NCBI GenBank assembly: GCA_017434555.1
Contig: JAFRFB010000013.1
Coordinates: 1 to 64,000, forward strand
DNA from: Methanobrevibacter sp.
GTDB lineage: Archaea > Methanobacteriota > Methanobacteria > Methanobacteriales > Methanobacteriaceae
Length of the DNA: 64,000 nt
Direction: 5' to 3'
Both the position numbers and the translations under genes were made by a program. The notes under the pieces are model-generated. The model was not told the origin of the DNA, ran no database searches, and saw only the letters and a program-made list of their open reading frames with translations. Below, piece by piece: positions 41,666-48,360 of the stretch. Each line of letters opens with the position of its first letter. Position 1 is the first letter of the stretch.

Positions 41666-42067
41666 TTATAATTCAAAGGTTTTTGGTGGTTCACCTGAAA
41701 AATCAGCAATTGTTGCTTTTCCGGAAACGGTAAATACTTCAAATATTGGGTTTTCACCTGTTTCGTATAATGTTTTAACAAGTTCGTTGGAATCAATTAC
41801 TTTTTGTTTTAATTCTACATCATCAGTGAATTCAACTTTTCCTGCAATTCTTAACCATACAAATTCTGGTGTTGCAACAACCATTTCACAGCTTGGATTT
41901 GCATCTAATTCTTTAAACATTGGTTTTGTGTTTGCAGTACAGAAGTATGGTTTTCCATCTTCTTCGAAGTAAAACAATATTGGTCTTACTTTTGCATTTC
42001 CATCAAGTCCACTAGTTGCTAAATATATTAAGGAATTTTCTTTTAAAAAATCAATAACTTCGCTCAT
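41666..42067 (-). CDS. Pyridoxamine 5'-phosphate oxidase-like FMN-binding protein
   Basis: A 133-residue split-barrel flavoprotein: VIDFLKENSLIYLATSGLDGNAKVRPILFYFEEDGKPYFCTANTKPM (residues 4-50) with the FMN-phosphate-binding R-P segment, then NPSCEMVVATPEFVWLRIAGKVEFTDD. Proteins of this size are FMN- or F420-dependent oxidoreductases of unknown substrate. The promoter is unusual: three GTTACT half-sites lie just upstream of its TATA box with the same spacing as at the macrodomain-sirtuin promoter, suggesting control by the HxlR regulator at 46204. The ribosome site GGAGAT precedes the ATG. Confidence 0.88.
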   Translation of the reverse strand: MSEVIDFLKENSLIYLATSGLDGNAKVRPILFYFEEDGKPYFCTANTKPMFKELDANPSCEMVVATPEFVWLRIAGKVEFTDDVELKQKVIDSNELVKTLYETGENPIFEVFTVSGKATIADFSGEPPKTFEL

Positions 42068-42112: not shown

Positions 42113-42162
42113 ATATAAACCTTTTTTGTAACTGAAATGTTACTAAGTAACCGATAAGTAAC
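42113..42162 (-). promoter_or_regulatory. Triple GTTACT box and TATA of the PNPOx-like gene
   Basis: Read on the minus strand, GTTACT begins at 42162 and at 42151 and GTTAC at 42132, giving start-to-start spacings of 11 and 19 bases. The TATA box TTTATAT begins at 42119, 13 bases after the third box. The same 11-19-13 pattern is found at 46637-46686. Such upstream placement next to the TATA box suits an activator or a TBP/TFB-blocking repressor. Confidence 0.7.
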
Positions 42163-46203: not shown

Positions 46204-46581
46204 TTAATCATTGATTCCTAATGTTTTTTTAAATGTATCTTTTAGGTCTTGTCTTGTTTTGTCACTGTAGTCCTTCTCGGTATCATTATTTAATGTAAAC
46301 ATTGCCAGTTCATAGATAACTTTATTGAGGGATTTTCCATATTCTGTTAAATGGTATTGTGTGCTTACGGGTTTGGTATTTAAAACGCTTTTTTCGATTA
46401 TGCCGTTTTCCTCAAGTTCATTAAGACAACCTGACAAAACCTTATTGCTGATATCTTTATCTTCTTTAAACTCTTTGAAATGTTTTTTACCAAAAAACAT
46501 ATCTCGGATAATCAGAATACTCCATTTTTTATTGATTAAGTTCATTGTCCTGTCAACGGGACAAACTATTTTTTCGGTCAT
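46204..46581 (-). CDS. HxlR-family transcriptional regulator
   Basis: A 125-residue winged-helix protein: EKIVCPVDRTMNLINKKWSILIIRDMFFGKKHFKEF, KVLSGCLNELEENGIIEKSV, and STQYHLTEYGKSL. The N-terminal cysteine (residue 7) is the conserved position used for thiol-based sensing of quinones, aldehydes or hypochlorite in YodB, HypR and relatives. It is divergent from the macrodomain-sirtuin pair; the GTTACT boxes lie between the two promoters, 56-90 bases from this start, so autoregulation is likely. GTGGTGAT precedes the ATG. The cbiE gene is immediately downstream. Confidence 0.92.
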   Translation of the reverse strand: MTEKIVCPVDRTMNLINKKWSILIIRDMFFGKKHFKEFKEDKDISNKVLSGCLNELEENGIIEKSVLNTKPVSTQYHLTEYGKSLNKVIYELAMFTLNNDTEKDYSDKTRQDLKDTFKKTLGIND

Positions 46582-46636: not shown

Positions 46637-46686
46637 GTTACTTTTTGGTTACTGAGTTCCCTATTTGTTACAAAAACAATTTAAAT
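46637..46686 (+). promoter_or_regulatory. Triple GTTACT box and TATA of the macrodomain-sirtuin operon
   Basis: GTTACT starts at 46637 and 46648 and GTTAC at 46667; the TATA box TTTAAAT starts at 46680. Spacings 11, 19 and 13 equal those at the PNPOx-like promoter. A second TATA-like block on the other strand (about 46615-46630) could serve hxlR, so the boxes are placed to act on both promoters. Confidence 0.7.
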
Positions 46687-46715
46687 GTATGATTATAATA
46701 TAATTAACATGAGGA

Positions 46716-47507
46716 GTGATTAAAATAGATTCTAACAAACAGTTAAACTATCTTTTAAATTATTTGATTGATGAAAGAAATGAGGAAATAGAAATTCCTC
46801 AAGACTATATTGAAAAAAGAAATTTGCTTCGGGCATTGATGAATGTAAGAATGCCAAATCCAATTGATGATGAGTTTCTAAAAGTTCAGGATGAATTTTT
46901 AACTGATGAAACTCTGTCAAAAGAATTGGTTGGTGTTGATGATATTAATGAATTCAAAGGTAAATTAATGCTTTGGAAAGGGGATATTACAGATTTAAAG
47001 GTTGATGCTATCGTTAATGCCGCTAATTCCAAGATGCTTGGATGTTTTGTTCCATTGCATAACTGTATTGACAATGTTATTCATTCAGCCAGTGGAATCC
47101 AACTGAGATTGGAATGTGACAGGATAATGAAGGCTCAAAATAGGGATGAAGACATTGGAAAAGCCAAAATTACGGATGCATATAATTTGGCATCAGAATA
47201 TGTGATACATACGGTTGGCCCTGCAATTCCTTTGAACTCCAAAGCTTCAGACACTGATTGTAAAAAACTTGAAAGCTGTTATAATTCATGTTTGGAAATA
47301 GCCAGTGCACATAATTTAAAATCTTTGGCGTTTTGCTGCATTTCAACAGGAGTTTTTAATTTCCCTCAGGATTTGGCAGCAAGTATTGCAGTAAAAACTG
47401 TTGATGAATACTTAAAAAATAACGAAACGTCCCTAAATCATGTCATTTTCAACGTATTTAAGGATGAGGATTATAAAATTTATAAAAATTTACTGTTTGG
47501 TGATTGA
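46716..47507 (+). CDS. Zinc-dependent macrodomain protein-ADP-ribose hydrolase
   Basis: A 263-residue macrodomain of the zinc-containing class. Key parts are [22 protein letters not shown] (ADP-ribose binding), the metal-site segment [19 protein letters not shown] (about residues 112-130), and [20 protein letters not shown]. In staphylococci and streptococci this class removes ADP-ribose added by the neighbouring SirTM sirtuin. Here the SirTM-like gene follows after 1 base. The start is uncertain: GTG at 46716 lies against GAGGA, and the ribosome site GAGGAGTGAT would suit an ATA at 46725. The promoter has triple GTTACT boxes. Confidence 0.92.
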
Positions 47508-47508
47508 A

Positions 47509-48360
47509 ATGGATCGTTTTGTACTCAGATTAGATAAGGCTAAAAAAGCTATTGATGATGCGGATTATATTGTTATTGGTGCAGGTGCAGGATTATCTGC
47601 TGCTGCAGGCATTGAATATTCAGGTAAAAGATTCACTGATAACTTTAAGGATTTCATTGATAAATATTCAATGACTGATATGTACTCTTCAGGATTCTAT
47701 CCATTTAAGACTTCCGAAGAAAAATGGGCATATTGGGCTCGCCACATTGATGTTAATAGGTTTCAGGTTGGAAAAACAGAGTTATATCAAAAATTATTAA
47801 AACTTGTTGAATATAAGGATTATTTTGTAATAACAACCAATGTTGAGCATCAGTTCTGGATTAACGGCTTTGAGGATGAAAGGATTTTTGCCACTCAGGG
47901 AGACTACGGGCTTTTTCAATGCAGTGAAGCATGTCATGACGAATTATATGATAATGAAGAACGTATTAAGGAAATGCTTGTAAATACCGTTGATTGTAAA
48001 ATTCCTCCTGAATTGGTTCCGAAATGTCCTCGCTGCGGAGCTGAAATGGAAACAAATCTCAGAAAAGATAATCTCTTTGTTGAGGACACTAATTGGCATG
48101 ATGCAAACAAGAGATATAAGAAGTTTTTAGATAAGATTGGTGATGCTAAAGTGGTATTTTTGGAATTGGGTGTAGGTTATAACACTCCTGTGATAATAAG
48201 ATATCCTTTTGAACAGTGGACTTATGATAATGAAAATGCTACATTAATCAGATTAAACCGTGATTTTCCAGATGCAATTAAGGAAAATGAATCTAAAACA
48301 ATTAGTTTTGATGAAGATATGGATGAAATTTTTGATTATTGGATTTCAAGAATTTTTTAA
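47509..48360 (+). CDS. SirTM-type (class M) sirtuin, probable protein ADP-ribosyltransferase
   Basis: A 283-residue Sir2-fold protein: ADYIVIGAGAGLSAAAGIEYSGKRF (NAD binding, residues 18-42), ITTNVEHQFWINGF, a changed active site where the usual His-Gly is embedded in ATQGDYGLFQCS, and zinc cysteines around QCSEAC and CPRCGAEM. Loss of the deacetylase histidine and linkage to a macrodomain are the marks of class M sirtuins, which ADP-ribosylate lipoylated GcvH-L in firmicutes. Neither GcvH-L nor a lipoate ligase is nearby, so the target is unknown. The ATG at 47509 follows GGTGAT. Its last 15 bases overlap the convergent phosphodiesterase gene. Confidence 0.9.
   Translation: MDRFVLRLDKAKKAIDDADYIVIGAGAGLSAAAGIEYSGKRFTDNFKDFIDKYSMTDMYSSGFYPFKTSEEKWAYWARHIDVNRFQVGKTELYQKLLKLVEYKDYFVITTNVEHQFWINGFEDERIFATQGDYGLFQCSEACHDELYDNEERIKEMLVNTVDCKIPPELVPKCPRCGAEMETNLRKDNLFVEDTNWHDANKRYKKFLDKIGDAKVVFLELGVGYNTPVIIRYPFEQWTYDNENATLIRLNRDFPDAIKENESKTISFDEDMDEIFDYWISRIF

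Follow-up and report, generated by a model that had tools for sequence, protein, structure and literature searches.

A class M sirtuin and zinc macrodomain pair of Methanobrevibacter lies beside an HxlR-family regulator gene and shares a predicted operator with a PNPOx-type flavoprotein gene

Results

Gene layout and identity of the SirTM/Zn-macro pair

The window analyzed here, the whole 64,000-nucleotide stretch at the start of contig JAFRFB010000013.1 of a Methanobrevibacter sp. assembly (GCA_017434555.1), carries adjacent genes for a zinc-class macrodomain (Zn-macro) and a class M sirtuin (SirTM). The features at and near this locus are as follows.

41666 to 42067, reverse strand: gene of a PNPOx/PPOX-class flavoprotein (NimA/NimC-like), the proposed co-regulated partner (PF01243; 2ig6, E 5e-17)
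42128 to 42162, reverse strand: second predicted operator copy with a single mismatch, 60 bp 5' of the PNPOx gene (genome scan)
46204 to 46581, reverse strand: gene of an HxlR/DUF24-family regulator with an N-terminal Cys7, divergent from the pair (PF01638)
46637 to 46671, forward strand: predicted operator GTTACTTTTTGGTTACTGAGTTCCCTATTTGTTAC, between hxlR and the Zn-macro gene (39 aligned loci; 0 mismatches to the composite pattern)
46672 to 46687, forward strand: BRE/TATA-like element (AAAAACAATTTAAATG), the putative promoter element of the pair (conserved AAAAATCATTTAAATA block)
46725 to 47507, forward strand: gene of the Zn-macrodomain, a predicted ADP-ribosyl hydrolase or eraser (8rsi match, NF003163; the ORF tool starts it at GTG 46716)
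47043 to 47066, forward strand: zinc loop Cx4HxC of C110, H115 and C117, numbered from GTG 46716 (sequence; as defined in PMC11490716)
47509 to 48360, forward strand: gene of the class M sirtuin, a predicted ADP-ribosyltransferase or writer (5a3a, E 4e-61)
47896 to 47901, forward strand: QG motif (Q130-G131) in place of the deacetylase HG (sequence and 5a3a alignment)

Both the ORF list and the sequence place a single base between the Zn-macro stop codon (47505‒47507) and the SirTM ATG (47509). A first-pass annotation of the window had described this 1-base spacing, a zinc-class macrodomain and a sirtuin with an altered active site, and the coordinates, database searches and alignments given here agree with it on each of these points. 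In the PDB search, the best solved homologue of the macrodomain was the M. oralis Zn-macro (8rsi; E 9e-116, full length), followed by the Zn-macros of S. aureus, S. pyogenes and fungi and then by ordinary MacroD proteins. The NCBIfam model NF003163 (protein-ADP-ribose hydrolase) scored 354 bits against a cut-off of 272. The residues diagnostic of Zn-macros are Cx4HxC, NAAN and Dx3H (PMC11490716). The Cx4HxC loop is kept in an alignment of 74 family-wide sequences, and the protein also has NAAN (N101‒N104) and the D119-x3-H123 dyad. The predicted N-terminal three-helix bundle (residues 5‒80) aligns with 8rsi over its full length.

The only PDB matches of SirTM were SpySirTM (5a3a; E 4e-61) and a fungal macro-SirTM fusion (8rsn). 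N111, Q130 and R185 align with the catalytic residues N118, Q137 and R192 of SpySirTM, and Q130-G131 corresponds to the replacement of HG by QG that defines class M (PMC4518038). In the profile searches, SirTM reached no Pfam model and fell far under the NCBIfam deacylase cut-off; without a Pfam match, it would be missed by Pfam-only automatic annotation. An ordinary deacetylase class, the alternative that the first-pass annotation had raised, is ruled out by the QG motif, the lack of a Pfam match and the sub-cut-off deacylase scores. A tree of limited sampling and arbitrary root groups 45 archaeal SirTMs into a single clade (97/86), next to a group from Clostridia, and no recent bacterial transfer of the SirTM at 47509‒48360 is seen in it. 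Elsewhere in the window, ORF 22397‒23908 resembles an IS-type transposase, as judged from its sequence.

The GTG at 46716 sits at the edge of the Shine-Dalgarno sequence GAGGAG (46711‒46716), and the conserved start position follows this sequence. Translation of the Zn-macro thus likely starts at the ATA at 46725, not at GTG 46716. The start codons at the conserved position of same-genus loci (L001‒L030, L063‒L079) are ATG in 18, ATA in 14, ATT in 12 and ATC in 1, with a Shine-Dalgarno sequence mostly 4‒8 nt upstream. In several of these genes, no ATG, GTG or TTG lies in frame ahead of the conserved N-terminus. The SirTM gene has an ATG start in 40 of 46 cases. The non-AUG start of the Zn-macro may keep the level of the eraser low.

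Absence of lipoyl partners from the genome

The host assembly comprises 3.15 Mb in 146 contigs and is 99.5% complete, and the GCV_H profile found zero matches in it. The sole Biotin_lipoyl domain of the genome forms the C-terminal end of PycB and carries the biotin motif AMKM; the sole LplA-B_cat match is BirA, whose gene adjoins that of the pyruvate carboxylase biotin-carboxylase. Neither a lipoate ligase (LplA2) nor a lipoyl domain was found genome-wide, and BirA and biotinyl PycB were the only relatives. These results rule out a lipoyl target elsewhere in the genome and extend to the whole assembly the first-pass claim that GcvH-L and a lipoate ligase are missing. The biotinylated swinging domain of PycB, the only Biotin_lipoyl protein present, could itself be proposed as the target, with SirTM still reading a lipoyl-type fold, since lipoyl and biotinyl domains have a common fold. 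We consider this very unlikely, as pycB is not linked to the pair in the archaeal neighbourhoods examined, and the properties of the M. oralis Zn-macro described below also speak against it.

The orthologous Zn-macro of M. oralis was crystallized by Ariza et al. 2024 (PMC11490716; PDB 8rsi, 8rsj and 8rsk), who termed its locus a minimal operon; the sequence of 8rsi is 100% identical to locus L006 (genome G041) of our set. This enzyme cannot demodify lipoyl-GcvH-L and lacks the positive patch used for that substrate, and it does act on PARP1 E988Q (PMC11490716). The same paper states that the targets of lone SirTM/Zn-macro pairs are unknown. The first-pass suggestion that the pair has another target is reasonable, but it is not new. 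The pair itself and its missing lipoyl partner are already published, and what is added here is the control system, namely the HxlR regulator, the operator and the link to PNPOx.

The target of the pair cannot be lipoyl-GcvH-L, which is the only known SirTM substrate (PMC4518038, PMC11490716). This known specificity might still favour a lipoylated protein that comes from the host or from syntrophs. Such a foreign target is extremely improbable: GcvH, lipoyl domains and lipoate ligases are all missing from the genome, and neither SirTM nor the Zn-macro shows a hydrophobic signal at its N-terminus.

A three-gene cassette with an HxlR regulator

The product of the divergent gene at 46204‒46581 matches PF01638 (E 9e-21; 74 bits, cut-off 20.8), and its best PDB matches are HypR (4a5m), YodB (5hs7) and QsrR (4hqm). 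Cys7 aligns with C14 of HypR and C6 of YodB, and Cys7-Pro8 is kept in at least 93% of 52 HxlR family sequences.

The immediate neighbours of the pair are HxlR, CbiE and a PDE. SirTM is present in 46 of 67 genomes of the genus, and HxlR adjoins the pair in 41 of these 46, divergently at the cbiE site in most and in other gene contexts in L064, L066, L068, L072 and L082; many of these genomes are MAGs, and genomes of one genus do not count as independent observations. The other five lack an adjacent HxlR, one of them at a contig edge. HxlR also stands beside the pair in another genus (L055). Conversely, in 14 genomes that have no SirTM but do have a cbiE orthologue, the cbiE neighbourhood lacks HxlR, Zn-macro and SirTM altogether, and the distance from cbiE to the next gene at these empty sites is 6‒93 bp (10 loci where the gap is measurable). 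Since all three genes are missing together at the 14 empty sites and 41 of 46 genomes have HxlR next to the pair, hxlR, the Zn-macro gene and the SirTM gene constitute a three-gene cassette. The first-pass annotation, which had proposed a comparison of archaeal SirTM neighbourhoods, had overlooked the regulator of this cassette as well as the operator and the flavoprotein described below. Literature searches for a link between macrodomains and HxlR found nothing.

HxlR could instead be a mere passenger of local synteny beside the published minimal operon with its unknown target. The M. oralis ortholog was indeed published as a minimal operon (PMC11490716), and synteny also covers the cbiE and PDE genes nearby. 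However, at precisely those sites from which the pair is absent, HxlR is absent too, and the two also occur together in other gene contexts, in other genera and in gut Clostridia. The operator described next is conserved as well, and its other sites lie solely before PNPOx genes. A passenger role is thus unlikely.

A predicted operator and its second site before PNPOx

Alignment of 39 intergenic regions revealed the composite pattern GTTAC-N6-GTWAC-N3-GTTNC-N6-GTTAC, located immediately 5' of the conserved AAAAATCATTTAAATA block. The pattern also occurs in L060, which represents a different genus and a different gene context. In the 3.15-Mb genome, only two sites have at most 1 mismatch, the one at 46637‒46671 and the one at 42128‒42162 upstream of the PNPOx gene. 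Across the 67 genomes, a scan allowing at most 2 mismatches found 59 distinct sites, against 10 for the reversed control pattern. Thirty-eight of the 59 lie at the promoter of the pair, and all of the others (21/21, the window's included) lie upstream of a PNPOx gene, mostly 60‒63 bp from its start; the pattern was derived from the pair's own promoters, so that only the PNPOx sites and the bacterial sites are independent tests.

Two arrangements bear on how the regulator and its sites are related. In G047, hxlR is away from the pair and neighbours PNPOx, where an operator is present (L162); the promoter of the pair keeps its own operator, as regulation in trans would predict. In the SirTM-negative genomes G042 and G101, PNPOx, an HxlR and the operator occur together, suggesting HxlR-PNPOx as the older unit. 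From these sequence patterns, we are confident, short of certainty, that HxlR and the pair are linked by regulation.

PNPOx orthologues (at least 65% identity) are present in 21 of the 46 SirTM genomes and absent from 25, and the operator precedes them at 20 loci besides that of the window. PNPOx adjoins the pair itself in L055, L059, L060, L064, L066, L068, L072 and L082. With orthologues in only 21 of 46 genomes, PNPOx cannot be the universal target; it is the leading single candidate for a substrate, a candidacy that we hold weakly. Its absence from over half of the SirTM genomes means that the target may instead be a conserved housekeeping protein. PNPOx copies with stops or frameshifts occur near the operator or the pair in L171 (G060) and L067 (G038), which suggests that some species are still losing the flavoprotein.

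Bacterial and other archaeal contexts

A scan of species genomes found 79 bacterial SirTM loci, mostly in gut Clostridia. Upstream of the bacterial pair are genes for HxlR, PNPOx-ferredoxin fusions, PNPOx, and nitroreductase-like, radical-SAM-like and flavodoxin-ferredoxin proteins, several of these names being read from the sequences themselves. At 72 bacterial SirTM loci, HxlR accounts for 20 of the 320 positions upstream and for 0 of 288 downstream; for PNPOx and the PNPOx-ferredoxin fusion together, the counts are 35 of 320 and 0 of 288. The motif GTTNC-N6-GTAAC precedes the bacterial hxlR gene in 18 of 24 loci, with a density of 2.04 per kb before those genes versus 0.016 per kb elsewhere (~125x).

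In another archaeal genus, the pair forms a same-strand operon with genes for a GNAT protein, an alpha/beta hydrolase, glutathione peroxidase and flavodoxin (L031, L032, L044‒L047, L049, L050, L052). In several genomes of a further genus, SirTM is directly followed by a gene for a nicotinamide phosphoribosyltransferase (PF18127; L040, L041, L048, L056 and L058), a linkage that fits an active SirTM because nicotinamide is the product of its use of NAD+. The glutathione peroxidase, flavodoxin and nicotinamide phosphoribosyltransferase neighbours fit redox stress and NAD+ use.

Additional SirTM copies were also observed. The second tandem SirTM of L034, L040, L041 and L043 no longer has the GAG loop or the GVGxNTP motif, and NG has replaced its QG, so that it is probably a non-catalytic partner. 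In G047 (L178), a second, divergent SirTM (L057, 7664‒8494; 38%) sits close to the bacterial group, at the end of a long branch, and is clustered with several HxlR and FMN-reductase-like genes, with no adjacent Zn-macro.

A writer and an eraser in one operon recall the logic of DarT/DarG, and the cassette has been gained and lost. On these grounds, the pair might be a defence or toxin-antitoxin NAD+ system, in which SirTM would be a toxic ADP-ribosylator and the Zn-macro its antidote. We give this little credence, since PADLOC gave no match to SirTM or the Zn-macro, the chromosomal site is fixed in most of the genus, and the surroundings point to redox regulation and not to a defence island.

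Discussion

The HxlR regulator, its predicted operator and the proposed co-regulated flavoprotein tell more about the function of the pair than the missing lipoyl genes do. We consider that the pair is probably a reversible ADP-ribosylation module that is induced by redox (thiol) stress and acts on a non-lipoyl target. What the sequences show is the identity and catalytic residues of the enzymes, the absence of lipoyl partners, the linkage and co-loss of HxlR, and the conservation and specificity of the operator.

By analogy with known DUF24 regulators, HxlR would bind two operators, the GTTAC one that separates hxlR from the Zn-macro/SirTM operon and the second one before the PNPOx-type flavoprotein gene. 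Oxidants or electrophiles would modify its N-terminal cysteine and alter its DNA binding, and the flavoprotein, SirTM and the Zn-macro would then be induced together. HxlR proteins can also be activators, and the direction of this regulation is likewise taken from the DUF24 family. As expected from SirTM/Zn-macro biochemistry, SirTM in this archaeon would use NAD+ to ADP-ribosylate a non-lipoylated protein, from which the Zn-macro would subsequently take off the ADP-ribose.

Zn-macros are reported to cleave S-linked ADP-ribose. A tentative and rather doubtful extension is that the lone pairs of gut methanogens and Clostridia represent a separate thiol-switch branch, whose substrate would be the PNPOx or PNPOx-ferredoxin flavoprotein, possibly modified at a cysteine. 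If this were true, redox sensing would be converted directly into the reversible ADP-ribosylation of an electron carrier.

The proposed module can be compared with three known systems. The M. oralis minimal operon is an orthologous pair from the same genus, with the same gene order and Zn-loop and with no GcvH-L or LplA in the operon (PMC11490716). We found a divergent HxlR beside the pair in M. oralis locus L006 as well, whereas the published account, in the part consulted, deals with the pair only and contains no HxlR, operator or PNPOx link. The extended SirTM operon of S. aureus and S. pyogenes (Rack et al. 2015, PMC4518038) shares the adjacency of SirTM and Zn-macro and the catalytic N/Q/R residues. 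Its flavin-type oxidoreductases (OYE, LLM) and its induction by oxidative stress, which are features of the bacterial system, can be counted as a further likeness. In contrast, no GcvH-L, LplA2, OYE or LLM lies beside the present pair, and a PNPOx-type flavoprotein and HxlR are found instead. HypR and YodB of B. subtilis and QsrR of S. aureus are the closest solved structures to HxlR by sequence, and they resemble it in the N-terminal redox cysteine and in the divergent layout of self and target promoters. The present system differs in being archaeal, in its operator of GTTAC half-sites, and in having an ADP-ribosylation pair as the proposed target, for which no description as an HxlR/DUF24 target was found in the literature searched.

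SirTM/Zn-macro pairs without lipoyl-GcvH-L are many, and their role was stated as open in the 2024 paper (PMC11490716). If our reading is correct, a dedicated redox regulator whose operator is conserved between Methanobrevibacter and gut Clostridia would tell when the pair is made, namely under thiol stress. The regulator and operator would also name a short list of partners and thereby make the role of the orphan pair in redox stress testable. The cassette would then illustrate that protein ADP-ribosylation can be under redox control in archaea.
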